Assembly: GCF_023701945.1 (NCBI RefSeq)
Contig: NZ_JABAEF010000012.1
Location: forward strand, 81,922 to 145,921
Direction of reading: 5' to 3'
Length of the DNA stretch: 64,000 nt
Origin: Rhizobium sp. CG5
GTDB lineage: Bacteria > Pseudomonadota > Alphaproteobacteria > Rhizobiales > Rhizobiaceae
The position numbers were made by a program, and so were the translations under genes. The notes beneath the pieces are model-generated. The model made no database searches, was not told the origin of the DNA, and saw only the letters and a program-made list of their open reading frames with translations. Positions 8,566-35,523 of the stretch are shown here, piece by piece; position 1 is the first letter of the stretch, and every line of letters starts with the position of its first letter.

Positions 8566-10596
8566 ATGTCAGTATCAAGCAAGACGGTTTACAGGGTAAG
8601 GCAGCTTGTCGGGCACGATGTCGCGATCATATCTGAAGTGAAGGATGGAGACGCTAACAGCGGCAAGGTCAAGGAGACCCGCGACAGCAGGATGGCGCTG
8701 TGGGGAACGGATTCCTTCTGGCTGGTCACTGGCGAGAAAAAGGAGCCGAAGATCCTTCTTCAGAAGGAAGATGCCATCAGCCCGGCATTCTCGATCGGTG
8801 TTTCACCGATGGCCGCCAGAATTCAGGCAAGCTCAATCTTCAAGGTTCCGAAGCTCGTCAACGAAAACGTTGTCCCCGGCAAATTCGACGCTGTCTCCTT
8901 TTCATCCGCGACAAAGCTTATCGTCGGCTACAGCCCTCCGGACGGCAGCAACGACGAGACGCTTACAGCGCTTTCCCAAGGCACGCTGCATATCCCGCTC
9001 GAAACCGCGGTTTCCGCAATCGAGGTGCGGCCCGGCCAGTGGCTGACATCGGGTTTCGATGCACTGCCATCGGGTAGATACGGTCTGAAGCGGGCGACGC
9101 TGCGATCTGTCGCGACGGTGGCGCTCGAAAATAGCCCCGAAATGATCAGGCTGGGCCATGGCCTCGTGGTTTTCGCCTCCAATCCCAAGTGGTCCGAGCC
9201 GAAATGCACGGATCTGCGCTCCGAGGAGGAGATCTTTCAGTCGGTTGAGCGATGGCTCTCCCGGACGACAGCGGCCCTCACCCTTCCGGCAGGCCCCATG
9301 GCTCCCACGGAACTCCTCCGCCTGCTGGCCGACAAGGCCGTCAGCGAGGAGGAGAAGGCCGATCTGGCCGCTGTGGCAGGACATCTGTCGATGCGCACCG
9401 AGCTTGCCGACATCCTGCCCAAAATCCTCGGGCGTGATGCTGCGTTCAAGGACATGATCGCAAGGTTCGGGGAAGCGGAGAAGATACGGCTGCGAGCGGA
9501 ACTGGAAGACCAGCTCCGCAGGGAGACGGAGGCCGACAGCGCCCGCCTGGCAGCGCTTCGGGAAGAAGTCGCCACCGCGGAAGCAAAACTCGCAATGTTC
9601 TCTCACCGAGAGGCCCTTCTCAGGACCGAGACTGAGAAGCACGAGGAGACCCTGCGCGACCGAATCGCGAGCGCCGCCGAAGGGATCAAGAGCGAATCCT
9701 CGCGAGATGCGGCCATGATCCGGGAAGAGGTCGCTCGCTTGCGCGACGATATGGCCCAGATCGCAGCCGCCGCTCCAGCGGCACCGATGCCAGTCGCGGC
9801 GCCCCAGGCGGAGGAAGCGGCTCCGACACCCCCTCGGCCGCCATTCGCTTCGGACGAGCAGAGGCAGAAGACCGTCCGCGAGCTGTCCGTCGCCACTGGC
9901 CTGACGCACCCCGAGGTCGCAGCCGTCATCGCACTGGGAATGGACGTGGTTCCTGTTCTGGTCGGACCCGACGCGGCTGCCGCTGTGGTCGACATCGCCA
10001 CGGCCATAGCCGGGGAGGATGCTGCGATCGTCTTCTGCGATCCCACCAGGCTCTCCCTTGCTGATATCCTCAACGACGAGAATTCGGGCTTCAAGGCCGC
10101 CATCGACATGGCGAGGGCACGCCCCGAAATGCTGGCCGCCGCTGCACTGTGCGGCATCACCAACGGCCCGTGCGAATACTGGCTCCCCCAGATTATCGAG
10201 ATGAGAAGGGTCGGCCGCCTTCCGCGCAACCTTACGCTGTTTGCAAGCGCTGGCACGGACGGGATGCGCATTTCGATCCCTGACACCGCGCTCCGACACC
10301 TGTTCCCCGTCGCGGCGGGGAAGTTGGCGCGCCCCGGCTCCGCAAAGTTCGAAGGGCTCTGGCCATCGGCCGGCTCAGATCCTGAACGGTTCCAGGAAGC
10401 GGTGGATATCCTCATCGACGGAGGACTTGAGGGCGTTGTCATGCAGAACGCCGCAAGGGCACTCGCGCGCACCCCGGCATGGATGAAGGTCGGGGACCTG
10501 AAGGATGTCTTCCTCCGGCAGGCGAAGTGGCTTTCGGCCACCGCCGCGGGCGACGAGCACGAACACAACAAATACTTCAAGAATATAGAGGGCTGA
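8566..10596 (+). CDS. druG: Druantia type II protein DruG, with coiled coil
   Basis: This is a 676-residue protein starting at ATG 8566 after AGAGATGGAAGC. Residues about 300-400 are a heptad-like, Glu/Arg/Ala-rich coiled coil (LRRETEADSARLAALREE and neighbouring heptads). An Ala/Pro-rich linker near 400-425 separates it from a C-terminal domain. No catalytic motif is visible. It sits between druF and druE, only 2 bases before the helicase start, which fits a subunit of the same complex. The name is assigned by operon order rather than by a recognised domain. Confidence 0.68.
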   Translation: MSVSSKTVYRVRQLVGHDVAIISEVKDGDANSGKVKETRDSRMALWGTDSFWLVTGEKKEPKILLQKEDAISPAFSIGVSPMAARIQASSIFKVPKLVNENVVPGKFDAVSFSSATKLIVGYSPPDGSNDETLTALSQGTLHIPLETAVSAIEVRPGQWLTSGFDALPSGRYGLKRATLRSVATVALENSPEMIRLGHGLVVFASNPKWSEPKCTDLRSEEEIFQSVERWLSRTTAALTLPAGPMAPTELLRLLADKAVSEEEKADLAAVAGHLSMRTELADILPKILGRDAAFKDMIARFGEAEKIRLRAELEDQLRRETEADSARLAALREEVATAEAKLAMFSHREALLRTETEKHEETLRDRIASAAEGIKSESSRDAAMIREEVARLRDDMAQIAAAAPAAPMPVAAPQAEEAAPTPPRPPFASDEQRQKTVRELSVATGLTHPEVAAVIALGMDVVPVLVGPDAAAAVVDIATAIAGEDAAIVFCDPTRLSLADILNDENSGFKAAIDMARARPEMLAAAALCGITNGPCEYWLPQIIEMRRVGRLPRNLTLFASAGTDGMRISIPDTALRHLFPVAAGKLARPGSAKFEGLWPSAGSDPERFQEAVDILIDGGLEGVVMQNAARALARTPAWMKVGDLKDVFLRQAKWLSATAAGDEHEHNKYFKNIEG

Positions 10597-10598
10597 AC

Positions 10599-13500
10599 AT
10601 GTTTGATCCGATTGGCGGCTTCAACAGGATGATCGATCAGTTCCTCGCGTACCTGGACACGGCGTACCGGATCGATGATCCGCGCGTGTCGGCGCTTAGG
10701 AGGAAACTGCTGTCCACGCCGGGTGAGCTTTCCCTCGATCCGATCTTCGAAGCCGTGGCGCGCTACAAGCCAGTCAAGTATGGGCTCGAGGGGCTGATCG
10801 ATGATCCCGAAGGACGGCTCCCGCATTTCTCGCGGAGCGAACGCCAGGCTTTCGTCGAACTTGCGCTCTCCGGCCTCTTCGACCGCGACAAGTCCAGCGG
10901 CGAATACAAGGGCGCCTACGCCCCCTATCTGCATCAGGTGCAGATGCTGGAAAAGGGTGCGCGGGACGGAACGCCCGGCATCGTCACCTCGGGCACGGGT
11001 TCCGGCAAGACGGAATCCTTCATGCTGCCGATCCTCGCCCAGCTCGCACGGGAGGCTACGTCATGGCCCGCCCCCCTGCAGCCGCTCGATGACTTGTGGC
11101 TCGAAAAGGGTCGCGAATTCCAGCCGCACCGCAGGAACGAGCATCCGGACAGGTCCAAGGCGGTCAGGGCGCTCATCCTCTATCCACTCAACGCGCTCGT
11201 TGAAGACCAGATGGTCCGCCTGCGCAAGGCGCTTGATTCCGACGAGGCGCAGGATGTCATGGCGCGTCATTTCAACGGCAACCGCGTCTTCTTCGGGCGA
11301 TACACGGGCAAGTCTCCGGTCACGGGCTTCCTGAGCCACCCGCGCAAGAGCAAGGACAAGACGTGGAAGGCGCGCAACACCCGAGCGCGCCGGGAGCTGA
11401 AGCAGCAACTGCAGCGCTACCAGTCGATCCAGCAGCGTCTGGCGGGCGATGCAGATCCTGACCTGCGGTACATCTTCCCCGCGACGGACGGCGGCGAACT
11501 GATATCGCGCTGGGACATGCAGGCTACCCCGCCGGACATCCTCGTCACCAACCAGTCGATCCTCAACGCAATGCTCGTCCGCGAAGTCGATGACCCGATC
11601 CTCACGCAGACCCGCGAATGGCTGACCGGGAACGACGATGCACGCTTCTTCCTCGTGCTCGACGAGCTTCACCTGATCCGCGGTTCGGCCGGTGCCGAAA
11701 TGGCGGGCCTTCTCAAGGTGCTTCTCGAGCGGCTCGGGCTGGCCGATCCGGCGAACGCCCACAAGCTCCGCATCCTGTCCTCGTCCGCGTCGCTTCCGAT
11801 GGACGACGAAAACGCCGCGGCCAGCATCGACTACCTCAAGAACATGTTTGGCGACGCGGGGACGGCGGGAGCCACAGATCTCGATGAAGCCTGGAAGCAG
11901 AGCGTTGTCCAAGGCGAGACCATCGAGGTCACGCGGCCCGACAGCATGCCGTCACGCGACAGTCTGGCCGAACTCGCACGCGCGCTGGAGAACCTCGACT
12001 ATCGCCGGAAACCCGGCGATCTTCTCGACCGCTTCCTCGCCGCGGCGGCGAGCATTCCGGGTTCTGCCGGAAAGACCCCTGCGGCGATGATGGAGGCGGC
12101 CACGGTGACGGCGGCCGCGATGCTCGACTACGCGCTGCAGGATCAGGACAAGCATGGATCCAAGCGGCCGCGCACGGTCGAGGATATCGGCAAGGTTCTG
12201 TTCGGAGCCGACGACAGAGAGGCCGTTCGTGGCCTGCTTGCCCTGAGGGCGATCCCGGATCTTCCCGGCCCCGACCATCCGATCCCCGTGCTGCCCGCCG
12301 AACTCGCGCCGCGACGGTCGATCGTCGCCTCGCTGCCGGGCTTCAGGATGCACTGCTTCGTCCGCAACATCGAAGGCCTGTTCGCCTCCATCCACAGGGA
12401 GGATGACGGTGCCGTCGTCTGGGGAACCCCCAGCATCGAGCGAGGCCAGAACTACGACGGAGAGAGCGATACGGAAGGCCGCAAGCGGCTGTTCGAGATG
12501 CTCTACTGCGAAGCGTGCGGGGATCTCTATCTCGGCGGTAAGCGCGGGGAGACCGATCCCGGCTCGTCGCGCCGCGTGTCGTTGCTTCCTGCCCCGCAGG
12601 AACTGGAGAAGCTTCCGGAGAGCGCCTCGTCGATCCGCTTCGAGGACGCCAGCTACCGTGAATTCGCCCTCTTCTGGCCGAGCCAGGGGCAGGCCGAAGT
12701 CGAGATCCGCACGGGCAGGACACCGTATCGATGGACGTTCGGCTACCTCAATCCCCGAACAGGTGTCGTTAGCGACAAGGAAGAGACGGGCGACGTTCCT
12801 GGCCATCTGCTTCGCTGGACCGGAACCGACGGGTTCCAAAGCCGCACGATGGAAGACGACGGCACCGCGGTTCCGTTCTGCTGCGCCAAGTGCGGCACGG
12901 ACTATTCAGGACGCTATCGACAGGCAAACTCGAAGAGGCGCGAGGGCCGCCTGTCGCCGATCAGAAGCTTCAGGACTGGTTTCGGCAAGACCTCACAGCT
13001 CCTCGCCACCGAACTGGTCGCATCCCTGAAGGCACAGGGCGGCGACGGCAAGCTGGTCGCCTTCTCCGACAGCCGCGAAGATGCGGCGAACCTCGCCCTC
13101 GAGGTCGAGGTGCAGCACCAGCGCGACCTACGCCGCGAGATCCTCATATCGGCCGCGACGCGCATCGCCGCCGAGCACACTTACACCGCGAATGACGAGG
13201 CCGAGTACCAACGCCTGAAGCGCGAAGTCGCCGACCTGATGATGGATGACAAGGACACCGATCATCTCCAGCCTCGGCTCAAGGCCCTTCAGAAGCGCAA
13301 GGCCGGGGCGGGGCAGCCTCCGAGCGTCCCGCTCAAGGACCTCTTCGAATTCGAGCGCGACAAGGCGGGCAACGCTACGCGGCCTATCCTGACCGAGCTG
13401 ATGAAGCTCGGCTCGACACCCGTCGAGGGAGCCGACACGATCCACACACGCATCCGCAACCGTAACTGGTACGAATTTTTCGAGATGGACGGCAACGGCC

Positions 13501-16475
13501 AGATATCGTGGAAGCACGATGTCACCGAAGAGCAGCTCAAGCTGATCCGCAAGGCGCGCGAGAAGGTTCAGGACGAGCAGCCGCCGGATGCCGCCGACCT
13601 GCTATTCAGCAAGACGTACTTCGCGCTGGAGGAGACGGGTCTCGGATGGCCGAGCTTCTACGGCCCAGAGGAATACACACCCGATAAGTCGCGCGACGAC
13701 GCGATGCTGCGCATCTTCGCCGATGCCTATCGGATCACGCCCAACCAGTTCCAGGAGGAGACGCGTACCGCCTGGAAGAACGCCTTCGACATGCTCGGCA
13801 GGGGCGACAACAGGCTGAGGCGCCTGATGTCGAAGATCCTTCAGCATCCGGAACAGGAATGTGACGCCTTCCTCGACAAGCTCAGGACCACCCTGCGCCA
13901 GACTCGCGGCGACGGGTCGATCGACATCAGCATGCTCTTCTTCCGCGCCGCCGACCCGTCCGCAGCCGCCTGGCGCTGCGGCCGCTGCGGACGCGTCCAT
14001 CTCCACACCGGGTTCGGGCGCTGCACCCGCTGCGGGGAGCCGCTGACCCGGCCCGAGGATCTGACGGCTGCGAAGATATCCGGAGAGAACTTCCTCGGAC
14101 GCAGGGTGATGCGCGCGATATCGAGCGGGGAGCCGCATTTCAGGCTCAAGTGCGAGGAGCTGACGGGCCAGACGAGCGATCCGGCCGGGCGGCTCCAGCA
14201 GTTTAAGGGAGTGTTCGTTAAGGAGGACGACGAGACCGACGAAGACTTCCGCTGGCGCAGACTCTTCGACACGTCCGACCTGCTTTCCGTCACGACGACT
14301 ATGGAAGTGGGTGTCGACATCGGCTCCCTGCAGGCGGTCTATCAGGGAAACATGCCGCCCCAGCGCTTTAACTATCAGCAGCGCGTGGGCCGTGCTGGCC
14401 GTCGTGGACAGGCGTTCTCGACCGTTCTTACCGTCTGCCGCAGCAAGAGCCACGACATCCACTACTTCCACAACCCGATCGAGATCACCGGATCGGCTCC
14501 GCCGCCGCCGTTCATCACGACCGGACTGACGGATATCCCGTGCCGTCTGCTGCGCAAGTTCTGGCTGGTCGAGGCCTTCCGCATTCTCCGCGAGGAAAGC
14601 GGTGGGACATGGGCGGGAGACGACCTCGTTCCCGGCGACATCCACGGCGAGTTCCTCTACTGCAGGGAATACTTCCGGCAGGACATGAACTGGCGGGATC
14701 GGCTGTCCGACGCGCTGGAGCGCACGGACCATCGGCGTGTCCGGCTGGCGACGATCCTCGCCGCCGTCTCGGACTGCGATTTGGAGAAGATCCTGGCGGC
14801 GGTCTCGGCGGACACCGTTCTCGCAGCCATCGACAGTCTCGAGGATGAGTTTGGCCTGCAGGCGATCGGCATAGCGGCGGCACTCGCGGAACGCGGTCTT
14901 GTTCCGCTTTATGGCATGCCCACGAGGTCGCGCAATCTCTACGTCGAGCTGAAGAAGACCAAGGGAAGCTTCGAGGCCGAATGGGACACCATCGACCGCG
15001 ACCAGGACATGGCGATCTTCGACTTCGCCCCCGGCAGTGTCCGCACGCGCGAGAAGCTGCGCCACCGCTGCATCGGGTTCACGGGCGTGATTCCCGACCC
15101 CGACGAGTTCGCCACCGATTTCGGTGCTCCCATGAGGCCGTTCTCGAACTGGTGGAAGGACGACTTCCATCTCCGCTTCTGCGGGCAGTGCGGCGCGTGG
15201 AGCAGGGGCACCGAACAAACCGTCGCCTGCCATGCGTGCGATGCGCCTCTGGCCGACACCGGGATCCGTTGCATCACGCCTGCTGCTTATCGGACGGAGC
15301 TTCGCCCGACTGACGAGAACCTCGCATCGAAGGTCGGCCAGCGCATGACCCTCGCCAGCCTCGGTAAGCCGGACAGGCAGACGACGGACGAGAACCTCAG
15401 CGTCAACTTCGCGGAGCAGTCGGAGATCTTCCTCGTCAACCCCGGCTTCAGGGACGACACGGACTTCACTGGCTTCGAAGTCCAGGAGGCTATCGACAAT
15501 GACGCGCAGCGCATATGGTGGTGGAAGGACAAGCCGCTTATGAAGCTTGCGGAACAGGCCATCGCCACCGATGCCCTCGCAGACGACCCGAACGGCCGCT
15601 ACCGGGCGGTGGAGGAACCCATCAGCGCATGGCTCGCCTCTACCAAGGTCACCAACTCGCTGCAGATCGGCCCCGTCAAGCTCAATCCGAACCTGCGACT
15701 GCTCGACATGGACATCGGCCTCTCCATGGGCCGTCGGGATCCGGCCCGCACGAGCGTGCGCGCCGCGGCGATATCGGCGACGGAGATCCTCGTCCAGCGC
15801 GCCGCGCTCGATCTCGACATCGCGCCGGAGGAGTTCGACGCGCTCGCGCCGAACATCATGGTCTCTCCGACCGGGGAGCGCCTGCCATACCTGCAGATAT
15901 CGGATGCGCTTCCAAACGGCTCAGGCTTCTGCCGGCATCTTCTGGGCGACAGTACCATCCCGGTCTCCGCTCTGATCGGCAGCATCCTCGACGGGGAGGG
16001 CGCATGGCCGAGAACTGACGTGGCCGATGCCGAACACATGAAGCGGTGCGGAGCCTCCTGCTACAGGTGCCTGCAGAGGTACAACAACAGGAACTTCCAC
16101 GGTCTGCTCGACTGGCGGCTCGGGCTCTCCTACCTGCGGGCGATGGTCGACCCCTGCTACGAGTGCGGGATCGACGGGAACTACGGCCACTTCGAACTCA
16201 GTGACTGGCCTGCGACCGCCAAGGAGCTTGCTCTCCAGACGAAGACATTCATTCCCGGCAACACGATCTCGAGCGTGAAGGGGAGGCCGGACATTCCGAC
16301 CTTTTCCCTCGATGAACGCAACAGTCGCTGGGGCGTGGTTGTCCATCCCTTATGGGACGCGGAGCGTCTATTAGATTCCTTGGGTCTGGATCAGCGTTAC
16401 GTCGCGATCGACAGTTTCGAATTGTCGCGACGCCCCCTTCATGTGCTGCAACGCGCTCGCTTGTCCTCGAGATGA
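10599..16475 (+). CDS. druE: Druantia helicase DruE: DEAD-like SF2 helicase with zinc ribbons and DUF1998
   Basis: This is a 1958-residue protein whose ATG at 10599 overlaps closely with the druG stop. The helicase core has Walker A GTGSGKTES near 131, the DELH box near 355, SSSAS near 395, and a C-terminal RecA half with motif VI VGRAGRRGQ near 1262. Two probable zinc ribbons lie between or after the core halves: CGRCG...CTRCG near 1127-1146 and CGQCG...CHACD near 1528-1546. The DUF1998 domain closes the protein with the cysteine cluster CGASCYRC near 1820 and the LDWRLGL string. One polypeptide with both helicase and DUF1998 at about 2000 residues is the hallmark of DruE. DISARM instead splits these between DrmA and DrmB. 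It is the likely motor that acts on phage DNA. Confidence 0.88.
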   Translation: MFDPIGGFNRMIDQFLAYLDTAYRIDDPRVSALRRKLLSTPGELSLDPIFEAVARYKPVKYGLEGLIDDPEGRLPHFSRSERQAFVELALSGLFDRDKSSGEYKGAYAPYLHQVQMLEKGARDGTPGIVTSGTGSGKTESFMLPILAQLAREATSWPAPLQPLDDLWLEKGREFQPHRRNEHPDRSKAVRALILYPLNALVEDQMVRLRKALDSDEAQDVMARHFNGNRVFFGRYTGKSPVTGFLSHPRKSKDKTWKARNTRARRELKQQLQRYQSIQQRLAGDADPDLRYIFPATDGGELISRWDMQATPPDILVTNQSILNAMLVREVDDPILTQTREWLTGNDDARFFLVLDELHLIRGSAGAEMAGLLKVLLERLGLADPANAHKLRILSSSASLPMDDENAAASIDYLKNMFGDAGTAGATDLDEAWKQSVVQGETIEVTRPDSMPSRDSLAELARALENLDYRRKPGDLLDRFLAAAASIPGSAGKTPAAMMEAATVTAAAMLDYALQDQDKHGSKRPRTVEDIGKVLFGADDREAVRGLLALRAIPDLPGPDHPIPVLPAELAPRRSIVASLPGFRMHCFVRNIEGLFASIHREDDGAVVWGTPSIERGQNYDGESDTEGRKRLFEMLYCEACGDLYLGGKRGETDPGSSRRVSLLPAPQELEKLPESASSIRFEDASYREFALFWPSQGQAEVEIRTGRTPYRWTFGYLNPRTGVVSDKEETGDVPGHLLRWTGTDGFQSRTMEDDGTAVPFCCAKCGTDYSGRYRQANSKRREGRLSPIRSFRTGFGKTSQLLATELVASLKAQGGDGKLVAFSDSREDAANLALEVEVQHQRDLRREILISAATRIAAEHTYTANDEAEYQRLKREVADLMMDDKDTDHLQPRLKALQKRKAGAGQPPSVPLKDLFEFERDKAGNATRPILTELMKLGSTPVEGADTIHTRIRNRNWYEFFEMDGNGQISWKHDVTEEQLKLIRKAREKVQDEQPPDAADLLFSKTYFALEETGLGWPSFYGPEEYTPDKSRDDAMLRIFADAYRITPNQFQEETRTAWKNAFDMLGRGDNRLRRLMSKILQHPEQECDAFLDKLRTTLRQTRGDGSIDISMLFFRAADPSAAAWRCGRCGRVHLHTGFGRCTRCGEPLTRPEDLTAAKISGENFLGRRVMRAISSGEPHFRLKCEELTGQTSDPAGRLQQFKGVFVKEDDETDEDFRWRRLFDTSDLLSVTTTMEVGVDIGSLQAVYQGNMPPQRFNYQQRVGRAGRRGQAFSTVLTVCRSKSHDIHYFHNPIEITGSAPPPPFITTGLTDIPCRLLRKFWLVEAFRILREESGGTWAGDDLVPGDIHGEFLYCREYFRQDMNWRDRLSDALERTDHRRVRLATILAAVSDCDLEKILAAVSADTVLAAIDSLEDEFGLQAIGIAAALAERGLVPLYGMPTRSRNLYVELKKTKGSFEAEWDTIDRDQDMAIFDFAPGSVRTREKLRHRCIGFTGVIPDPDEFATDFGAPMRPFSNWWKDDFHLRFCGQCGAWSRGTEQTVACHACDAPLADTGIRCITPAAYRTELRPTDENLASKVGQRMTLASLGKPDRQTTDENLSVNFAEQSEIFLVNPGFRDDTDFTGFEVQEAIDNDAQRIWWWKDKPLMKLAEQAIATDALADDPNGRYRAVEEPISAWLASTKVTNSLQIGPVKLNPNLRLLDMDIGLSMGRRDPARTSVRAAAISATEILVQRAALDLDIAPEEFDALAPNIMVSPTGERLPYLQISDALPNGSGFCRHLLGDSTIPVSALIGSILDGEGAWPRTDVADAEHMKRCGASCYRCLQRYNNRNFHGLLDWRLGLSYLRAMVDPCYECGIDGNYGHFELSDWPATAKELALQTKTFIPGNTISSVKGRPDIPTFSLDERNSRWGVVVHPLWDAERLLDSLGLDQRYVAIDSFELSRRPLHVLQRARLSSR

Positions 16476-23239: not shown

Positions 23240-25552
23240 ATGCTCGAAGAGATCTGCATTTCCAGTGTCGCGACTTATCCTGAAACTGCTCAGCGCCTCG
23301 AGGGATTGAAGCCGATTAACTTCGTCTTCGGAACCAACGGGTCGGGAAAAACTACGATCTCCAGGATATTGGCCGATACCGCAGCTTACCCCACTTGCAC
23401 TACTATTTGGTTCCGAGGTCGAACTGTCGAGACGCTTGTCTACAACAGCGATTTCGTCGAGAACAATTTCACGGAGCATCTCAAAGGCATTTTCACCCTC
23501 GGAGAGGTGGCAGCAGAAAAGCGTAAGCAGATCGAGGAGGCCAAGGCGAAGGTCGCAGACTACCTCGATCAGATCGACAAACTCAAACTCGCCCTGGGTT
23601 CAGAAGCAACCAGCACGGGGAAGCTGGGAGATCTCGGGCGGCTCAGGGCTGCGTTCGAAGAACGCTGCTGGCAAATCAAGTCAACGCATGACCGTGACTT
23701 CAAGCGAGCATTTGAAGGTGCGAGGAATTCAAAGGAGCGTTTCTGCGACCGTGTTCTGGCGGAAACCGCAGAGAACACCTCGGCGCTCTGCACGCTGGAG
23801 GATCTGCGCGCGAGAGCCGAGTCAGTCTTTGCGCAAGCTGTTGCAAAGGTGACTCCGATTACGACGTTCGACGGACGGCGTGTTCTCTCGCTGGGAGATG
23901 CAGCCATCCTGGAAAAACCTGTGGTCGGAAAACAGGATGTCGACCTTGCACCACTAATCAGCAGGCTGGGTAACAGCGACTGGGTAAGAGCCGGACTGCA
24001 TTTTGTCGAAGGCACTGGCGCACCTTGTCCATTTTGCCAGAAGGCAATGGAAGCAGAACTGCTTGATAGGCTCAAAGCGCTTTTTGATGAGGTCTATGTC
24101 GCAGACATTAAGGCGATCGAGGGTCTCAGGGATAGCTACGAGATAGAGGCGCAGGCGCTGCTCAACGTCTCGGACGCCGCGCTTTCTTCTGGAAGTCCTT
24201 ACATGGATGCTGTGACGCTTAGGCCCTTTATCGAGCGATTGCGGGCGGTACTTGAACTCAACAAAAGACATATAGAGAGGAAGCGGAACGAGCCTAGCTC
24301 TAGGGTTTGTCTGGAGCCGGTGTCTGAGGCAATCGAGGCTGTCGCTAGTTTCATTGAAAAGGCAAACGCCGCCGTTTCCCGGCATAATCAGCTTGTCGAA
24401 AATCTCGGTGCTGAGCGAGGGAGGCTGACATCCGAAATCTGGAAGCTAGTTTGCCACGACAACAAGTCGGCTATTGACTCTTACCTTTCCGAAAAGACGA
24501 GCCTCGACAAGGCGGTCGATGGAATGCGAGCGGGTCTCAAAGACAAAAACGAGCGCCTCGCAACAGCAAGGACGACACTGGCCGACCTTGAGAGAAGCGT
24601 GACCAGTGTCAGGCCGACCGTCAACGAGATAAACGGAATTCTTGCCTCGTTTGGCTTTACCAGCTTTAAATTGGAAACAGCAGGAGACAGAGATGAATCC
24701 TATGCGATCGTCCGAAGCGATGGGAGTAGTGCGCGCAATACGCTGAGTGAGGGAGAGCGGAGCTTCATCTCCTTCCTGTATTTTTACCATCTCATCCGTG
24801 GCAGTACAAACTCCGCAGAGATCAGCGGGAACCGGGTGGTGGTCTTCGACGATCCGGTATCCAGTCTCGACAGCGACGTCCTGTTCATCGTCAGTGCGCT
24901 TATAAAGCGGGTGCTTTCCGAAGCTTGTTCAGGCAAGGGCGCTATCAAGCAGGTCTTCGTAATGACCCACAACATCTACTTTCACAAGGAAGTGACGTTC
25001 GACCCCGATCGGAAAACCGACAAACGTGCCCACGAGACATTCTGGATCGTCCGGAAGACGAACGAGGGAAGTCAACTCGAGGGTTTCGCACACAATCCCA
25101 TCCGCACGTCGTACGAGTTATTGTGGGAGGAGATCCGTCGCCCCAGCCGTCCGGCAGTGACGATACAGAACGTGATGCGTCGCATCCTCGAGCACTACTT
25201 CACGATTCTGGGGAACATGGACAAGGACTCGATCATCGAGAAGTTCGAGGGTCGCGACCAGCAGGTGTGCGCATCGCTTTTCTCTTGGATCAACGACGGA
25301 TCACACAACTTCAGCGACGAACTTTATGCCAGCCTGGATGCCACGACTGTCGACAAGTATCTGGTCGTCTTCGAGCGCATTTTTGGTGTCACGGGGCACG
25401 GTGCGCATTATGCGATGATGCGGGGGCCAGTGCCAATTACCGCGGAAGATAAGGAGATTCCAGCCGAGGTTGTTGCAACAGCAACGGAGATGCTGGAAGA
25501 GTCTGGCGTACTTTCGGTTGAGCCCAGCGGCTTCCCAGCGATTCCGGCTTGA
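23240..25552 (+). CDS. RloC-like ATPase with zinc hook and candidate anticodon nuclease
   Basis: This is a 770-residue protein starting at ATG 23240 after GGGAGGAG. The N terminus has an ABC/SMC-type Walker A (GTNGSGKT near 32-39). Coiled-coil arms flank a CPFC zinc hook near 262. The C-terminal ATPase half carries the signature LSEGERSF, the Walker B FDDPVSSLDSD and an MTHN H-loop. After it, Arg647 and Glu651 (in MRRILEHYF) and His689 (in DGSHNF) match in order and roughly in spacing the Arg-Glu-His triad known for PrrC and RloC tRNA anticodon nucleases. RloC senses DNA damage or phage takeover and cleaves tRNA to stop translation. The close coupling to the Hhe-like gene suggests one transcript. 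The triad call is by eye; a generic AAA_13 ATPase is the fallback. Confidence 0.72.
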   Translation: MLEEICISSVATYPETAQRLEGLKPINFVFGTNGSGKTTISRILADTAAYPTCTTIWFRGRTVETLVYNSDFVENNFTEHLKGIFTLGEVAAEKRKQIEEAKAKVADYLDQIDKLKLALGSEATSTGKLGDLGRLRAAFEERCWQIKSTHDRDFKRAFEGARNSKERFCDRVLAETAENTSALCTLEDLRARAESVFAQAVAKVTPITTFDGRRVLSLGDAAILEKPVVGKQDVDLAPLISRLGNSDWVRAGLHFVEGTGAPCPFCQKAMEAELLDRLKALFDEVYVADIKAIEGLRDSYEIEAQALLNVSDAALSSGSPYMDAVTLRPFIERLRAVLELNKRHIERKRNEPSSRVCLEPVSEAIEAVASFIEKANAAVSRHNQLVENLGAERGRLTSEIWKLVCHDNKSAIDSYLSEKTSLDKAVDGMRAGLKDKNERLATARTTLADLERSVTSVRPTVNEINGILASFGFTSFKLETAGDRDESYAIVRSDGSSARNTLSEGERSFISFLYFYHLIRGSTNSAEISGNRVVVFDDPVSSLDSDVLFIVSALIKRVLSEACSGKGAIKQVFVMTHNIYFHKEVTFDPDRKTDKRAHETFWIVRKTNEGSQLEGFAHNPIRTSYELLWEEIRRPSRPAVTIQNVMRRILEHYFTILGNMDKDSIIEKFEGRDQQVCASLFSWINDGSHNFSDELYASLDATTVDKYLVVFERIFGVTGHGAHYAMMRGPVPITAEDKEIPAEVVATATEMLEESGVLSVEPSGFPAIPA

Positions 25553-27346: not shown

Positions 27347-28465
27347 TTACTCATTCGACATCCGAACCTCGATTATGTCGTCGTCTGTGATAACGGGCAT
27401 GTCGCTGTTCAACCCGGAAATCTCGGCGAGGCAGTGAAACAGCTTGATGACGCGTTGATACTGTCGGACGATGAGATCCAGAATGTCTTCGCCTGCGTTG
27501 GTCTCAAATGGCCGGCGATATCGGTAGAATTGGCCTGCCGCAGAGAGTTGGACGGCCATGCCGGAATGCTCGGCGTGACGGCTTCCGTAGGGGCGCCTGT
27601 GGGTGAATGTATTCCGAAGCTCGGTTAGATCCCACATCCAGTCACCTGTTTGCCATTGTCCCTTCTGCTTGGATTCTTTGATGAGGCCGCGCGTAATAAG
27701 TTCAGCGAGCATGGGGTCGGCATCAAGGTGGCGGGTCCTGAGCTTCTTGCAAAGTGATTTGAACGAGTCGATCTTGCCTGGGTCCTCGCCGACCTTTAAC
27801 GCGATGAAGGATCCCAGATAGTCCCGCGCCGCTCCGGCATGCATGAAGAAGGAATGAACGTGCGTATTCAGCACCTGATCCAGCGTTCCTGAAACCCGAT
27901 CATTCTCCAATCTATCGGTAGCCATCAGGTCAACGAGTTGCTCGTGGTAGAAGGCTGCGATCTCCTCAACACTGATATCCATCCCGCGTAGGCTCAACGC
28001 GATGAACTGGGCCAGCCTCTCGTCGGGCTGCTGGTCATCGATGATCGCCGCTAATTCCTCATGACTGGCATCCTTGAGCGCATCCAGCCGTGGGCCTCGC
28101 CGCTCGTCCCCGATGCGGCTAGAGATATTTCGCCAGAGATCCGATGCGCCAATCATGTGGTTCGACTGCCCAGGAACAATCGGAATCCAGTTGCTGTAGT
28201 AGGATCCATTGTTCCACCCGGCGTGTTGAAAAGCGATTGGCGTGACACCGAGGAAGTGTCCGATCTTCCAGATGTCCGTTCTCGCGAAGTTGCCGAATGA
28301 GGCGGGCCGACTGTGTGAGAGAACGGGCTCGATCGCCCAGCGGTCATCAAGAATACGTCCGGCCCGTATCCCTCCCGAAAAGTGGAGGTAGAAGCTTTCC
28401 CCATCCTTGAGGCGGGGGATCCAGCGCACCGGCTGGCCGTCCATGCGAGGTTCTTGTTCTGTCAT
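27347..28465 (-). CDS. Hypothetical protein with RX4H (HEPN-type) motif, last gene of the Pycsar-like operon
   Basis: This is a 372-residue protein with no signal peptide or membrane segment. I recognise no full-length family. Arg284 to His289 (RNTFTH, followed by RRPYG) is an RX4H motif in a helical region near the C terminus, the pattern used by HEPN ribonucleases. The N-terminal part (FYLHFSGGIRAGRI) looks like a beta-rich domain. The start is 9 bases after the stop of the membrane effector gene, so it belongs to the same four-gene transcript. It could be an additional RNase effector or an accessory subunit. The HEPN reading rests on a short motif and is tentative. Confidence 0.5.
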   Translation of the reverse strand: MTEQEPRMDGQPVRWIPRLKDGESFYLHFSGGIRAGRILDDRWAIEPVLSHSRPASFGNFARTDIWKIGHFLGVTPIAFQHAGWNNGSYYSNWIPIVPGQSNHMIGASDLWRNISSRIGDERRGPRLDALKDASHEELAAIIDDQQPDERLAQFIALSLRGMDISVEEIAAFYHEQLVDLMATDRLENDRVSGTLDQVLNTHVHSFFMHAGAARDYLGSFIALKVGEDPGKIDSFKSLCKKLRTRHLDADPMLAELITRGLIKESKQKGQWQTGDWMWDLTELRNTFTHRRPYGSRHAEHSGMAVQLSAAGQFYRYRRPFETNAGEDILDLIVRQYQRVIKLFHCLAEISGLNSDMPVITDDDIIEVRMSNE

Positions 28466-28474
28466 CGCTCGCCC

Positions 28475-29041
28475 TTAACAGTCTAGTTGGCTGATTGCCC
28501 ATCGGGCACAGGCGAACACCAGAGGAACTACCATGCAGGCGAAAGCCGCCAAGACGAATGACCCCGCCCAGTTGAACATCCTGAATTTCCTATGTGCTAT
28601 CCTTGCATGGATCGCGGTTTGTACCGCGAGGTCATGGAGATAGGTCGCCGTCGCGGAGTCGCTTTCGGTTGGCAAATACAGCTCAGCCGCCATGTTGGGA
28701 TAGGCCGCGGTTCCCGCCCTGTCGATGTCTCCGAAATAGAGAAGGTTCTTGTAGTCGTCCTCCCGCTTGTGCATTTGGTCAAGAAACTTTGGCATCAAGG
28801 ATTTCAGGCTGATCACGGCGGCGATGAAGAGAAGCGGCAAGGCCGCTGTAAACGCGTAGCAGTAGCCGAAAGGAAGCTCGCCTGGAGCTCTTAGGAGTGT
28901 GATGATAGCTCCCATCCAGACTGAACAGAAGGTAAGGAGGGCAGCATTCTTGGCCTCGGCAAACTTACCGAAGTCGATCATCCTGCCGTGATTGGCAGCG
29001 AGCAACTTCTCATATGCTTCCTGCTGGTCGTTCTTGGCCAT
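28475..29041 (-). CDS. Pycsar-type transmembrane effector (PycTM-like)
   Basis: This is a 188-residue protein. The ATG at 29041 is preceded by GAGGAAAAGAAG; the longer upstream frame overlaps the previous gene and has no such site. A soluble N-terminal helix pair is followed by hydrophobic segments near residues 32-50, 57-80 and 163-182, with a charged cytoplasmic region between (DQMHKREDDYKNLLYFGDI). This arrangement matches the small membrane effectors of Pycsar, which bind cyclic pyrimidine nucleotides and damage the inner membrane to abort infection. It sits downstream of a class III-type cyclase in one operon, which is the main support for the assignment. Confidence 0.72.
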   Translation of the reverse strand: MAKNDQQEAYEKLLAANHGRMIDFGKFAEAKNAALLTFCSVWMGAIITLLRAPGELPFGYCYAFTAALPLLFIAAVISLKSLMPKFLDQMHKREDDYKNLLYFGDIDRAGTAAYPNMAAELYLPTESDSATATYLHDLAVQTAIHARIAHRKFRMFNWAGSFVLAAFACMVVPLVFACARWAISQLDC

Positions 29042-29051
29042 CTTCTTTTCC

Positions 29052-29849
29052 TCAGCCAGAAACCCGCGCAAGCGGGCACTCGTCCATGGTGCCGCAGCAG
29101 ACCTGACGGCTGGCGCGCAAATACGTGTAGAAGTCGGCTTCTGCCTTTCGCCAGCCGTCCATGTTAAGGACAAGTTCGGCAATCAGCCGCGCGTGGTCAC
29201 CACACGAGGCCAGCGGGAGACGACGAACATCAGCATGATCGCATTTGCATCTTTGACGCAGCGTCATCACACGTCGCACGGCTGGCACGACGGTGACCAC
29301 TCGTCGGCCGTCCTGGAGAAGTGCGATGCGATCTCGGCGGCGCCCGCGACCCAGGCGGAGGCGATCGTCTCTCAGCAAGGCTACGAACTTGGGACCAAGT
29401 GCCGCGGCATTCTGTTCCGCCATCGCCTGCAAATGTGCAGCCTCCGAGCCATGCGCACGAGCGTCAGCCTTGCCCGGCCAGCGCCGCAGCGCGGCTGCTG
29501 AACGTTGGCGGAGCAGAAAGGTCAGAAGCTTTCCCCACCAAGCCTCCGCCTCCTCGTGGTCCTCGATCTGTGTCGGTTCGACTTCACCCCAGTTGAGGCA
29601 GAACGTGCCGCCTGGATTGATGTGCCGCTCTGCGCAGAAAGACGGCAGGAGGGTCGCCTCCGCCTCTTTTACAGACACCCTCTCTCCCTCACGTGAGATT
29701 TCCAGGATGAACTCGGGTGAGGGAGCGCCGGATGCGCTGGGCGGACAGACTCCGTATATCGCTCGCTCATCGTTTCCCGAGATGAGCCGGGCGTGGTTCT
29801 TATGTGCCACGCTGTGAAGATGTTCGATAGGTGACAACGCTGGCCTCAA
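29052..29849 (-). CDS. Cysteine-rich protein resembling the E2 domain-associated family
   Basis: This is a 265-residue protein. The likely start is TTG at 29849, which overlaps the cyclase TGA (TTGA), implying translational coupling; a GTG about 40 bases downstream is possible. The middle contains CAERHINPGGTFCLNWG and an AWWGKLLTFL segment followed by RRWPGKADARAHG, a pattern I associate with proteins found beside prokaryotic E2/ubiquitin-like modules. The C-terminal 60 residues carry six cysteines (CKC, SCG, VCCG, EC), a probable metal-binding region. No E1 or canonical E2 catalytic gene is nearby. Presence between a Pycsar cyclase and its membrane effector is unusual and suggests a regulatory or processing role. 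Family identity is from memory. Confidence 0.55.
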   Translation of the reverse strand: MRPALSPIEHLHSVAHKNHARLISGNDERAIYGVCPPSASGAPSPEFILEISREGERVSVKEAEATLLPSFCAERHINPGGTFCLNWGEVEPTQIEDHEEAEAWWGKLLTFLLRQRSAAALRRWPGKADARAHGSEAAHLQAMAEQNAAALGPKFVALLRDDRLRLGRGRRRDRIALLQDGRRVVTVVPAVRRVMTLRQRCKCDHADVRRLPLASCGDHARLIAELVLNMDGWRKAEADFYTYLRASRQVCCGTMDECPLARVSG

Positions 29850-31372
29850 TCGATCTTCGCATGCGGGCGGAAGGGTGTCTCTGCCGCTCGAGCAATGGCA
29901 GGACTCGCCGCCGCATAGAGCACGGCCCGCGCCGCCTTTGCTGTGCTATCATCCTCGGCGGCAAGTGCTTCGAGCGCGACATCGTAGGTCAGGTTAGCGA
30001 CCCGGCGGGACGAGCCGAAGAGCTTCCGTACCGACGACGGCCCGTCATCGTAGGCCGACTGGCCGATTGCCGTTTGCGTTCCGTTGCACCGCTTTTGTTC
30101 GGCCTCGGAAAGCAGCACCGAGCGGCCGGTGGAGCAACGAACGCGGCTCCCCTGCATTCCAAGGCGCGTGATCGAACCCGGGCCAAAGTCGAAGCCGATG
30201 GCAAGGCCCAGATCGTCTGTGTCCACGCCATTATCCTGAAGGCGTTCGAGAGCAAGATCGAAACTGCTACGAAGTCCGCCGGCACAGAGTACCGCCGTGG
30301 AGATGGTGGCATCGGTGTCAGTGGTGTAGGCGGTGCCCTCGAGGAGGTGACCATGGACGCAGTCGCCGATGAAGCGAATCCGGCGCCCGGAGAAATCCGA
30401 GGTGACAACACGATCAAGTTCTGCGCGGATTACATGAAGGCAGCGGACGACGTCTTCCGCATCATCATCGATGTGGGAGTCGACGTAAGCGGTGAAATTA
30501 TCCACATCGGCGTAGATCGAGACCATGTCCATACGGCGAGAGTTACCCGGTGTAAGAACGGTGATATCCAGGTTCTTCAAGGGAGGTGTCGCTCGAGAGA
30601 AAGAGAATGACCCGATGGGATTGTTCTCGTTGTCCTTTCTCCACTCCTTCACGATCGAATCCTTGCTCAGACCGAGCTGGGCATTGTCTGCGCACTGTGC
30701 GATTTCATCGTCCGTGAGCTTTGTCTTCGCAGGTACATCAACGGTGTCGAGATCGATCGCATCGCGGGCCTCGTTGCTCAGATAGATCCCGACCGCCTTG
30801 TTGTTCGAGGCGAGCTTTGCGGCAATGTTTGCCGGACGACCGAGAAAAAGCGGCTCGCGGTATCCATTGCGCCCGTTGTTTACGGCCAGTGCCTTCCCGG
30901 TGTCGATGCCGACGCGCACCTTCGCGTTAGGGATATTCTCGTCATTGTCCCCGGTCTCGGCAAGAACATCCACGATCAGCTTGGCTATCGCCACCGCGCG
31001 GTCCACACGGTCACCCGTCGCATCCGTCCCGTAGGGCTTGGCGATGACTGCGTGCAGGCGCTGGTTATGGAAGTCCACCCGGATGGCATCTGCGTCGGCA
31101 AGGATCCGGTGCACTGCTCGGTAATGGAGGTTCAGGAACCGGAGCGCGCGCTTGTGGGAAGTTTCTCCTTCGGTATCCGTCGACCAGAGCATCTCTTCGA
31201 AGTTGACGATGTCGATGTAGAGATGAACGCCGTCCAGGCGATAGGCCTTGTTCGTTGGGATCGACTGAAGCGAGGTGGTTCGTGTGTAGTCGACCACCGT
31301 TACGTTTTCGACGTCCTTGATGCGTGCGTCGATTGCGGTTTTGGCGCGGTCGTGCTTCCAGGTATTTGCCAT
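29846..31372 (-). CDS. pycC: Pycsar nucleotide cyclase (PycC-like, class III cyclase fold)
   Basis: This is a 508-residue protein starting at ATG 31372. The C-terminal half holds a class III cyclase domain with metal-binding aspartates in YADVDNF (Asp289 or Asp291) and FIGDCVHG (Asp337). The N-terminal half repeats the theme with YIDIVNFEEM near 53 and a second beta strand near 95, so the protein appears to contain two cyclase-like halves, of which the second looks catalytic. Such cyclases make cCMP or cUMP when phage infect and activate a partner effector. The genes downstream in the same operon include a small membrane effector, as expected for Pycsar. Which pyrimidine nucleotide is used cannot be told from the sequence. 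Confidence 0.8.
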   Translation of the reverse strand: MANTWKHDRAKTAIDARIKDVENVTVVDYTRTTSLQSIPTNKAYRLDGVHLYIDIVNFEEMLWSTDTEGETSHKRALRFLNLHYRAVHRILADADAIRVDFHNQRLHAVIAKPYGTDATGDRVDRAVAIAKLIVDVLAETGDNDENIPNAKVRVGIDTGKALAVNNGRNGYREPLFLGRPANIAAKLASNNKAVGIYLSNEARDAIDLDTVDVPAKTKLTDDEIAQCADNAQLGLSKDSIVKEWRKDNENNPIGSFSFSRATPPLKNLDITVLTPGNSRRMDMVSIYADVDNFTAYVDSHIDDDAEDVVRCLHVIRAELDRVVTSDFSGRRIRFIGDCVHGHLLEGTAYTTDTDATISTAVLCAGGLRSSFDLALERLQDNGVDTDDLGLAIGFDFGPGSITRLGMQGSRVRCSTGRSVLLSEAEQKRCNGTQTAIGQSAYDDGPSSVRKLFGSSRRVANLTYDVALEALAAEDDSTAKAARAVLYAAASPAIARAAETPFRPHAKID

Positions 31373-31593: not shown

Positions 31594-34500
31594 TCAGCTG
31601 CACCCACTCGTTGAGCCACACGTGTCGCACTTCTCGCACGTGCCATTGCGCACCATCGTAAAGTTCTGGCATTCCAGGCACATGTTGCCGGTATAGCCTT
31701 GCGCGATGGAGCGCATGCGGCGTTCGCTTTCCTTCTTTTTGGCGTCTGCCTTGGCGGCTGCCGCGTCGGCTTCGGCCTTGTCGGTGAACAGGCCCTGGCT
31801 TTCGACGGCTTCGGCCAGTTCCTCGGCATATTCCTCGACGAGTGCCGCGGCGCGTTCCTCGTAGTCGCGCTTGAAGGACACCACTTCCGAGGTCGAGATG
31901 GCCATGACCGGTTCGATCTTGCGCACCGTATTGCCGACGATCGCCGTGACCGTGGCGCCGACTGAGGCCTTGGCAGGTGCTGCACTTGCGGCACCCTTGG
32001 GCTCCAGGCCGGCGGCGGCCGCGCCGTGGCCGGAGACCAGGACCGGCTTGTAGCCGCGGGTCAGGCCCTTGGACACGGCGTCGGCCTTGCCTTCCTTCAT
32101 GCCGCGGCCAAGCGCGGTATTGCCGAAGTCGGAGGTGTCGACATGGGCGAGATCGTGGCGGCCGAGATAGGAGATCGCCAGTTCGCGGAAGACGTAGTCG
32201 AGGATCGATGTCGCGTTCTTGATCGCATCATTGCCCTGGACCATGCCGGCCGGCTCGAACTTGGTGAAGGTGAAGGCGTCGACATATTCCTCGAGCGGCA
32301 CGCCATATTGCAGGCCGAGCGAGACGGAGATGGCAAAATTGTTGATCAGCGCGCGCAGCGCAGAGCCTTCCTTGTTCATGTCGAGGAAGATTTCACCAAG
32401 CCGGCCGTCGTCATATTCGCCGGTGCGCAGGAAGATGGTGTGGCCGCCGATCTTGGCCTTCTGGGTATAGCCCTTGCGGCGGGTCGGCAGCTTTTCCTGT
32501 TCGCGCACCAGACGCTCGACGATGCGCTCGACGATCTTCTCGGTGACGATCACGGCTTGAGCGGCGGCCGGGGCCTGCAGCAATTCTTCCAGGGCGTCGT
32601 CGTCGCTATCGTCCTCGATCAGCGAGGCATTGAGCGGCTGGCTGAGCTTGGAGCCGTCGCGGTAAAGCGCATTGGCCTTGAGGGCGAGCTTCCAGGACAG
32701 CATGTAGGCCGCACCGCAATCCTCGACGGTCGCCTCGTTCGGCATGTTGATCGTCTTGGAAATGGCACCCGAGATGAACGGCTGGGCCGCGGCCATCATG
32801 CGGATATGGCTTTCGACCGACAGATAACGCTTGCCGATCTTGCCGCATGGATTGGCGCAATCGAACACCGGCAGGTGCTCGGCCTTGAGGAACGGAGCGC
32901 CTTCCAGCGTCATCGCACCGCAGACATGGATATTGGCCGCTTCGATCTCTTTCTTCGAGAAGCCGATATGCTCAAGCAAGTTGAAGCTGATGTCGGACAG
33001 CTGCTCCTCGGAGACCTTCAGCGTATCGCGCAGGAAGTCGATGCCGAGCGTCCACTGGTTGAACACGAACTTGATGTCGAAGGCCGCCTTGGTGGCGCCG
33101 TTGATCGCTTCGATCTTCTCGTCGGTAAAGCCCTTGGCCTTCAGCGAGCCGGGATTGACGCCCGGTGCCTGGTTGATATTGCCGTGGCCGACGGCATAGG
33201 CCTCGATCTCGGCAAGCTGGCTTTCGCTGTAGCCGAGCGCCCGCAGCGCTTCCGGCACGGCGCCGTTGATGATCTTGAAATAGCCGCCGCCGGCCAGCTT
33301 CTTGAACTTCACCAAGGCAAAATCGGGCTCGATGCCGGTCGTGTCGCAATCCATGACCAGGCCGATCGTGCCGGTCGGGGCAATGACCGAGACCTGCGCA
33401 TTGCGGTAGCCGTGCTTCTCGCCAAGCTCCAGCGCCTTGTCCCAGGCAGCTTTCGCATGGGCGACCAGTGCTGGATCCGTGCAATCTTCATGGATCAGGG
33501 CGACCGGATCGACCGACAGGCCTTCATAGCCCACCGTCTCACCATGGGCGGCGCGGCGATGGTTGCGGATGACCCGCAGCATGTTGTCGCGGTTCGGCGC
33601 AAAGTTGGGGAAGGGGCCGAGCTCTGCGGCCATTTCGGCCGAGGTGGCATAGGATACGCCGGTCATGATGGCGGTCAGGCTGCCGGCAATGGCGCGGCCT
33701 TCGTCGCTGTCATAGGGAATGCCGGTCGACATCAGCAGGCCGCCGATATTGGCATAGCCGAGGCCCAGCGTGCGATATTCGTAGGACCGTTCGGCAATCT
33801 GGCGCGACGGGAACTGCGCCATCATGACGGAGATTTCGAGAACCACCGTCCACAGGCGGACGGCATGCTCGTAATCAGCAATGTGGATCTTCTTGGTCTT
33901 GGCATCCTTGAACTGCAAGAGGTTCAGCGAGGCCAGATTGCAGGCCGTGTCGTCGAGGAACATGTATTCCGAGCACGGATTGGAGGCACGGATCGGGCCG
34001 GCGGCCGGGCAGGTGTGCCAGTCGTTCATGGTCGAGTTGAAATGCAGGCCCGGATCGGCCGATGCCCAGGCGGCATAGGAGATCTTTTCCCAGAGGTCGC
34101 GGGCCTTCAGCGTCTTCATGACGCGGCCGTCCTTGCGGGCGGTCAGGTTCCAGTCGCCATCCTGCTCCACGGCGCGCAGGAAGTCGTCCTTGAGCGAAAC
34201 GGAATTGTTGGAGTTCTGGCCGGACACGGTCAGATAGGCTTCCGAATCCCAGTCCGTGTCATAGGTCTTGAATTCCATGTCCTTGTAGCCCTGCTGGGCG
34301 AACTGGATGACCCGCTTGACGTAGCTTTCCGGAACCTGGTCCTTCTTGGCGGCCTTGATCTCGCGCTTCAGCGCCGGGTTCTGGTTGGGGTCGAAGCAGG
34401 CATCGTTGTCGGCCGTGCAATTGACGCAGGCCTTCATGATCGCCTTCAGATGCCGGGCAACCACCTTCGATCCGGTGACAAGCGCTGCCACCTTCTGCTC

Positions 34501-35400
34501 TTCCTTGACCTTCCAGTTGATATATTCCTCGATATCCGGATGGTCGATATCGACCACCACCATCTTGGCGGCGCGGCGCGTCGTGCCGCCGGACTTGATG
34601 GCGCCGGCCGCCCGGTCGCCGATCTTCAGGAAGCTCATCAGGCCGGAAGAGCGACCGCCGCCGGACAGCTTTTCGCCTTCGCCACGCAGATGGGAGAAGT
34701 TGGAGCCGGTGCCGGAACCGTACTTGAACAGGCGGGCTTCGCGAACCCACAGGTCCATGATGCCGCCTTCGTTGACGAGATCGTCCTCGACCGACTGGAT
34801 GAAGCAGGCATGCGGCTGCGGATGCTCATAGGCCGACTTCGACTTGACCAGTTTGCCGGTGAAGGGGTCGACATAGAAATGGCCCTGGCCGGGACCGTCG
34901 ATGCCATAGGCCCAGTGCATGCCGGTGTTGAACCATTGCGGGCTGTTCGGCGCAACGCGCTGGGTGGCCAGCATATAGGCAAGCTCGTCCTTGAAAGCGG
35001 AAGCATCCTCTTCGGAGGTGAAATAGCCGCCCTTCCAGCCCCAATAGGTCCAGGTGCCGGCCAGCCGGTCGAAAACCTGGCGGGCATCGGTTTCCGAGCC
35101 GTATTGTTCGTCCTTCGGCAGCGCCTTCAGGGCTTCCATGTCGGGAACCGAGCGCCAGAGGAACGAGGGCACATCGTTTTCTTCGACCTTCTTCAGGCGA
35201 GCCGGAACGCCGGCCTTGCGGAAATATTTCTGGGCGAGGATGTCGGCGGCAACCTGGGAGAACTGCGCCGGCACGTCGATGTCGGCCAGCCGGAAAACGA
35301 TCGAGCCGTCCGGGTTGCGGATCTCGCTGATCGCCTTGCGGAATTCGATGTCCGCATAAGCGCTCTGGCCTGGCTTGGTGAAGTGACGTTCGATGCGCAT
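31594..35400 (-). CDS. nrdJ: Vitamin B12-dependent (class II) ribonucleoside-diphosphate reductase
   Basis: This is a 1268-residue protein. I chose the ATG at 35400 because AAAGG precedes it and the protein then begins [20 protein letters not shown], typical of rhizobial NrdJ. It reduces ribonucleotides to deoxyribonucleotides using adenosylcobalamin. [20 protein letters not shown] near residue 480 carries the class II active-site Cys and Asn; the C terminus has a CxxC-rich metal-binding tail (CLEC, CEKCDTC). The length fits the long NrdJ class of alphaproteobacteria. It is the first core gene right of the defence island, and two NrdR-like boxes lie 124 bp upstream. Confidence 0.97.
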
Positions 35401-35523
35401 TTGCCTTTGTCCCTCGTAAACTCGTGCCCCCGAAAGGCACATAAATATCCGTCCGGCGGCATCACCATGGATGCAGCCAGCCTTTCGCCCGCTCTTTTGA
35501 GAGGAATCATCATCTGATGACCA

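Follow-up and report, generated by a model that had tools for sequence, protein, structure and literature searches.

Pyrimidine cyclase systems for anti-phage resistance (Pycsar) are described in PMC11224242 as a cyclase together with a receptor; the same text defines clade A by two consecutive cyclase domains and equates the structure 6yii_A with PaPycC, the Pseudomonas aeruginosa PycC belonging to that clade. In type II cyclic oligonucleotide-based anti-phage signalling systems (CBASS), as presented in PMC10097602 and PMC11153139, the cyclase is the target of the E1-E2 protein Cap2 and the isopeptidase Cap3; according to the former, the last residue of the CBASS cGAS is Gly or Ala in systems with full Cap2 and Cap3 and is not conserved in this way elsewhere. 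Here we analyse an operon from Rhizobium sp. CG5, located at positions 27347-31372 of a 64,000-nucleotide stretch of contig NZ_JABAEF010000012.1 (hereafter the window). The operon is probably an E2-type Pycsar anti-phage system, consisting of PycC, E2-Crich and PycTM, whose 3' end has received a HEPN-motif gene of independent standing by a swap. The features on which this reading is based are the following.

29846..31372, minus strand: PycC, two-domain clade A type Pycsar cyclase, 508 aa, ATG start (PADLOC, Pfam, 6yii_A)
29861..29866, minus strand: C-terminal dyad P503-H504 of PycC (tail FRPHAKID), proposed E2 recognition or processing site (tail comparison)
29052..29849, minus strand: single-gene protein with E2-ntca and E2-Crich, 265 aa, TTG start (Pfam)
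29598..29600, minus strand: codon of Cys84, candidate E2 active-site cysteine (HINPGGTFCL; invariant in 28/28 aligned relatives)
28475..29041, minus strand: PycTM membrane effector, 188 aa, ATG start (Pfam PF18967, PADLOC)
27347..28465, minus strand: HEPN-motif protein, 372 aa, ATG start, N-terminal beta part and helical bundle (motif alignment, AlphaFold2)
27599..27616, minus strand: R284-x4-H289 motif (RNTFTH) of the fourth protein (sequence and alignment)
28471..28487, no strand: junction at the transmembrane (TM) gene's stop codon where DNA homology to the two closest fetched operons stops (blastn)

The four genes are tightly packed on the minus strand. The TTG start of the second gene lies inside the PycC stop codon (overlap TTGA, 4 bp), the ATG of the TM gene follows 10 bp past the E2-Crich stop, and the ATG of the fourth gene 9 bp past the TM stop; gene calling thus agrees with the first-pass annotation of this DNA, which had given the same strand, overlap and gaps. 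That annotation had also proposed a Pycsar-like operon larger than cyclase plus effector, and PADLOC and Pfam bear this out by recognising PycC, E2-Crich and PycTM. As to the families it had assigned, profile searches with all four proteins placed the Pycsar and E2 families above cut-off, but gave no convincing HEPN match for the fourth protein.

The cyclase is matched by the PADLOC model PycC PDLC00762 at 785 bits (E 9.2e-237), and PF00211 matches it in two stretches, i.e. as two consecutive cyclase domains. In a search of solved structures, 6yii_A matched residues 1-506 (E 1.5e-194). Residues D289 and D337, which we take to be metal ligands, are invariant among 10 aligned PycCs. Pycsar clade A, with the PycC of PDB 6YII, is reportedly linked with the work of Tal et al. 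in 2021. The TM gene is assigned to PycTM by PF18967 (E 2e-10; 41.4 bits against a cut-off of 27.2) and by the PADLOC 2TM effector model (E 2.5e-84). With a predicted class III cyclase and a recognised PycTM-type receptor-effector, the operon fits Pycsar. CBASS membership was considered and rejected: by its Pfam and 6yii_A matches the cyclase belongs to class III and is not a CD-NTase. The locus resembles known clade A systems in that residues 1-464 of its PycC are 61% identical to a plasmid-borne P. aeruginosa PycC and a PycTM follows; it differs in the E2-Crich gene placed between cyclase and effector; an E2 frame also stands beside the P. aeruginosa pycC. No PycC was found in phage records.

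The product of the second gene matches both Pfam E2-ntca (86.5 bits) and E2-Crich (93.1 bits) above the Pfam cut-offs; the NCBI name for such proteins is E2 domain-associated cysteine-rich protein. The first-pass annotation had recognised the cysteine-rich, E2-associated character of this protein, correctly by the E2-Crich match, and had overlooked its own E2 domain; the candidate of an E2-associated protein lacking such a domain is ruled out by the E2-ntca match. The E2-like site reads H76-x-N78...F83-C84-L85, presumably resembling the eukaryotic HPN...CL site, and H76 and C84 are invariant in 28/28 aligned relatives, as are C201, C203, C216, C251, C252 and C258 of the Cys-rich domain. The known folds nearest to the predicted E2 fold are those of CBASS E2s, namely Cap2 and the CdnG-partner E2, though their lead is small. 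A comparison of the E2 alignment with solved-structure sequences returned nothing at E 1, and no E2 was found in viral contigs. Pfam gave no ThiF (E1) match among the four operon genes, to which the search for an E1 was confined. A protein of predicted E2 fold with a candidate active-site cysteine thus adjoins the cyclase, as type II-like signalling requires.

A genome search with the E2 alignment gave matches in 8/397 genomes of the order, 12/394 of the family and 4/63 of the genus; the window's genome is present in each of the three sets and some other genomes recur. Two weak matches were set aside: G084, at E 9.6e-4 and with a broken frame, was not fetched, whereas G411, at E 1.4e-5, was fetched as L060, where no PycC was found. 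Loci L008, L037, L038, L061, L062 and L069 duplicate genomes already counted. In all 17 genomes with a clear E2 match, the window's own excluded, PycC directly adjoins E2, and a PycTM homologue lies beside E2 in nine of them (L050-L054, L057, L058 and L092 by tblastn; L059 by Pfam).

Plasmids gave a similar picture. A tblastn search of PycC against 72,556 plasmid records returned 28 records, several of them near-identical, and all 28 have a ubiquitin-type partner: a single E2 in 23 and E1-E2 in five. The single-E2 records were read from fetched regions in 13 cases and in ten (H20, H21, H23, H25, H35, H38, H40, H41, H43, H45) from adjoining match coordinates alone; in 4/10 of the latter the match spans the E2 part of the query only, the Cys-rich domain not having been checked. 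The five E1-E2 records have a ThiF or E2/E1 neighbour, joined in three by a JAB gene. In an Acinetobacter plasmid record E2 and Crich are two separate genes, and on p382, a P. aeruginosa plasmid with the annotation pycTIR-pycC, the reading frame after pycC is E2-Crich (L034, 5542-6315), at a place where the incomplete PLSDB table lists no gene. Judged by sequence, PycC, E2-Crich and PycTM form a recurring predicted unit, and in each of the sets surveyed PycCs of this type have a putative E2 or E1-E2 gene next to them. The first-pass annotation had coupled the inner extra gene to the cyclase and suggested that it regulates it; these neighbourhoods (17/17 genomes with E2, 28/28 plasmid records with E2 or E1-E2) uphold the coupling and make the E2, as a regular partner of PycC, a likely regulator.

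Two variants of these loci were observed in addition. Loci L036, L072 and L095 combine PycC with E1-E2 (ThiF) and JAB in a long, Cap2/Cap3-like Pycsar form. At L055 (10155-11345), L056 (9680-10852), L065 (9909-11063), L075 and L083 (both 2794-3879), a cyclic-nucleotide-binding domain is fused to a cyclase just upstream of PycC (Pfam for L055; tblastn for the other four). At these loci E2 or E1-E2 lies downstream of PycC and no effector was noticed nearby; the fusion is possibly a cyclase switched by the product of another cyclase.

The C-terminal tail of PycC suggests where the E2 may act. A dyad [PAS][HYF] occurs within the last 14 residues of PycC at all 29 complete single-E2-linked loci, window not counted (L081, where PycC is broken by insertion sequence elements, was excluded; L050 and L092 share identical last 30 residues). 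These E2-linked tails have no terminal residue in common, and the dyad, in which an aromatic residue or histidine comes after a small residue, appears in the forms RPH, RPY, APY and RAH. In 2000 shuffles of the same 29 tails the dyad was present in 12.6 on average and in 22/29 at most. It was also found in 119 of the best 120 of 1302 PycC homologues (window's own included, partner genes not checked); of the 14-residue stretches taken from other parts of these 120 homologues, 20% contain it. The dyad was widened after the tails had been inspected; a first, narrower motif matched 22/30 E2 loci and 109/120 homologues. By contrast with the E2-linked tails, none of the five E1-E2-linked PycC loci (4 distinct proteins) has the dyad: the three JAB-associated PycCs (L036, L072, L095) end in GFS, GFS and GFA, and two records from Agrobacterium, which share one protein accession, end in RHA. 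The E1-E2-linked PycCs of L036 and L072, with 57% and 54% identity to the window PycC, have no dyad, whereas the E2-linked PycCs of L074 and L078, only 45% and 39% identical, have kept it. The tail therefore tracks the partner enzyme and not ancestry and, hence, the E2 probably acts on the PycC tail.

In the mechanism that we propose, infection would lead PycC to make a cyclic pyrimidine, probably cyclic UMP as reported for clade A, which would activate PycTM in the membrane so that the infected cell is stopped. The E2 would bind the PycC C-tail and, via Cys84, covalently process or conjugate it. Its action on the tail may set how active or poised PycC is, comparable to the effect of conjugating enzymes on the CD-NTases of type II CBASS. 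The nearest precedent is a single CBASS E2 of Serratia marcescens, which is said to act on its own cyclase by an E1-independent route. Tentatively, and with somewhat less than even confidence, two-domain Pycsar cyclases could themselves be viewed as the ubiquitin-like modifier in their conjugation pathway, E2-Crich or E1-E2 plus JAB acting on the tail at a partner-specific signature ([PAS][HYF] or GFS/GFA). If true, E2 control would have evolved on two cyclase folds that are not related to each other, the CD-NTases of CBASS and the class III cyclases of Pycsar.

The parallel with type II CBASS lies in the gene arrangement, with the cyclase beside E2 in a short form or beside E1-E2, in some cases plus JAB, in a long form, and in the small residue at the end of the JAB-bearing Pycsar PycCs (GFS/GFA), which compares with the Gly/Ala of cGAS. 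Unlike in CBASS, the Pycsar cyclase has the class III fold and makes cyclic mononucleotides, and the window E2 bears a C-terminal Cys-rich domain. Alternatively, the E2 might serve PycC as a non-enzymatic, structural partner such as a sensor or an inhibitor, the tail dyad being a plain docking motif. An operon that carries no E1 gene would suit this arrangement, in which the Cys-rich domain with its six cysteines (invariant in 28/28) could be the working part. We consider this unlikely because the invariance of Cys84 and His76 in 28/28 relatives goes beyond what a scaffold needs, and because PycCs of the same family occur with E1-E2 and JAB, implying catalysis at least there.

Each part of the operon is already known, and E2-Crich is already a Pfam entry. 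Among the papers listed in the literature searches we recognised no description of E2 or E1-E2 as a regular part of Pycsar, or of the tail signatures; the primary Pycsar paper was outside this scope, and a prior description is possible. The proposed action of the E2 on the tail bears on how Pycsar cyclases stay quiet and switch on: if this PycC group travels with E2 or E1-E2 and a matching tail, activation becomes testable through one cysteine or a few tail residues.

The fourth protein carries the R-x4-6-H motif of HEPN proteins at R284 and H289. Conservation in 43 aligned relatives (a 50-residue fragment from G464 left out) is 42/43 for R284, 40/43 for N285, 43/43 for H289 and 41/43 for Y293, and we take R-N-x3-H to be a HEPN-type pattern. 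The AlphaFold2 model (pLDDT, predicted local distance difference test, 91.9; pTM, predicted template modelling score, 0.89) shows an N-terminal six-stranded part followed by helices. The first-pass annotation had seen a possible RNase motif in this arginine and histidine; in the model both lie on one predicted helix (275-290). Family searches added little: the best Pfam match was Pkip-1 (E 0.3), the best PADLOC match SduA (E 0.014, residues 269-305), and NCBIfam gave none; no cyclic-nucleotide-binding domain was matched by Pfam. Among the 43 relatives, Pfam HEPN_Cthe2314, the sole HEPN profile touched, matches one weakly (E 0.006), one (P0006) is publicly named Apea-like HEPN domain-containing, and the PADLOC JetD model is touched in 5/43 (best E 0.00097). 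The alignment searched against solved structures returned weak unrelated rows only, and PHROGs gave no result for five relatives. A Foldseek search of the model gave no match at E 0.001, G-protein-coupled receptors and vinculin tails being unspecific helical rows; the lack of a HEPN row there excludes nothing.

A HEPN-type RNase is the likeliest reading of this predicted protein. Its motif might instead be structural and the protein have another role in the defence island, and no HEPN family match above cut-off, no specific fold match and the weak rows elsewhere (SduA, JetD) speak for that. We regard it as improbable in view of the HEPN-type pattern, with H289 invariant and R284 nearly so, the naming of P0006 and the relative that touches HEPN_Cthe2314. 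The protein would then be a second, separate toxin, probably an RNase, which shares with the Pycsar genes a common transcript and not a common signal.

Relatives of the HEPN gene are 37-81% identical in a protein search. None of the 17 other genomic PycC-E2 loci was found to contain the gene, although G782 carries a copy on a different contig, and no plasmid record has it; and the genus of G385 gave 0/140. Conversely, at 18 other distinct loci with HEPN relatives (13 from one search plus L009, L086, L087, L088 and L089) no PycC, E2 or TM gene lies within the DNA at hand, which at L020, L022, L023 and L024 includes little flanking sequence. One of the relatives at these Pycsar-free loci, L020, is close (61% identity), with just 375 bp available upstream. 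The window's protein shares its two-part build with this alphaproteobacterial HEPN-motif family, and differs in standing at the 3' end of a Pycsar operon. The first-pass annotation had joined all four genes into one expanded architecture; for the outer gene the loci surveyed do not bear this out, and a conserved four-gene Pycsar was rejected on its absence from the 17 loci.

The HEPN gene of L086 is packed against other unidentified genes. In the IMG/VR viral contigs L088 (8001-9149) and L089 (7938-9149) HEPN relatives lie immediately downstream of an integrase-like gene, so labelled from a look at the sequence; the two proteins are 96% identical to each other. The HEPN family can travel as prophage cargo.

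How the HEPN gene came to its position is suggested by the two closest fetched operons, L050 and L092, which are 95-96% (PycC), 89-90% (E2) and 82-88% (TM) identical to the window's. By blastn, homology stops at 28471 against L092 (90.0% identity) and at 28487 against L050 (88.7% identity). Past its TM gene L050 has a second, small cyclase and a cyclic nucleotide-binding TIR effector (Pfam CAP12-PCTIR_TIR), and L092 keeps just a 39-residue remnant of that second cyclase (49% identity, E 5e-7). The window thus carries the HEPN gene in the slot that is held by a second cyclase and PycTIR in its sister operon, and the 3'-end swap is an example of defence operons exchanging modules with the core left intact. 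A second single-domain cyclase and a PycTIR-like effector after PycC-E2-TM were observed at L050 (1837-3479), L051 (5097-6715) and L058 (8454-10075), giving two Pycsar pairs within one operon (Pfam for L050).

Several observations weigh against an E2-type Pycsar system with an independent, swapped-in HEPN gene. The operon has no E1, which leaves ordinary ATP-dependent E2 charging unexplained; the dyad was defined post hoc, among relatives that are not independent and with few E1-E2-linked proteins for comparison; the HEPN assignment has neither a family nor a fold match; and 17 of the 18 Pycsar-free HEPN loci are distant (35-44% identical). In addition, of 46 HEPN clusters at least three besides the window's, at 63-80% identity, lie on the same contig as PycC or E2. 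Shared contigs were inferred from equal lengths, namely 20377 (HEPN, E2, PycC), 47913 (HEPN, PycC) and 71256 (HEPN, E2); the last pair has the same strain name, with locus tags 20 apart. The count is a lower bound, taken from the best 120 of 141 E2 and the best 120 of 1302 PycC matches with many contigs short. Of the ten PycC clusters 95-97% identical to the window's, none is on a contig of the same length as a HEPN cluster, most of their neighbourhoods not having been seen. Within the close subfamily, linkage between HEPN and Pycsar recurs without being obligatory.

An expanded Pycsar with PycTM and HEPN as two effectors under PycC, the HEPN RNase being fired by the same signal, would account for the 9-bp spacing on the same strand, the lack of a promoter- or terminator-like match in the minus-strand interval separating TM from HEPN, and these shared contigs, but is the least probable of the alternatives given the 17 other PycC-E2 loci and the plasmid records where no HEPN gene was found, the 18 Pycsar-free loci (L020 and two viral contigs among them), the lack of a cyclic-nucleotide-binding domain match in the HEPN protein and a junction that marks a module swap.

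With regard to its surroundings, the operon starts 221 bp past the stop codon of the flanking gene, at which the island as a whole begins:

31594..35442, minus strand: nrdJ, vitamin B12-dependent ribonucleotide reductase (named from annotated matches)

In the sibling genome G709 (17 kb fetched; nrdJ protein 98% identical), DNA similarity to the window (94%) is confined to positions from 31600 onwards, where nrdJ ends. In the fetched DNA, nrdJ lies on the upstream side of the operon in 10/18 E2-bearing genomes, window included (window, 31594; L051-L055, L057, L058, L092 and L093); a cyclase gene in L055 and about 3 kb in L058 lie between the two. In 16 other genomes of the same genus the fetched DNA downstream of nrdJ (only 1.3 kb in one) contained no PycC, E2, TM or HEPN gene, and same-genus genomes without the operon have short variable genes there. 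Comparison of the 3' end of nrdJ within the window for a repeat that could serve as attachment site gave only short chance matches. In this family, the region just past nrdJ resembles an insertion hotspot, occupied by PycC-E2 systems and by further variable genes.

On the other side of the operon, positions 1746-26840 of the window carry further defence-island-like genes on the plus strand.

1746-3668, plus strand: presumably an AAA+ protease-like protein
4114-6066, plus strand: presumably a cytosine methyltransferase-like protein
10479-16475, plus strand: DEAD helicase, 83% DNA identity to L092
17630-23227, plus strand: DUF4011 helicase with MTES_1575 nuclease domain
23240-25552, plus strand: AAA_13/PDC-S06

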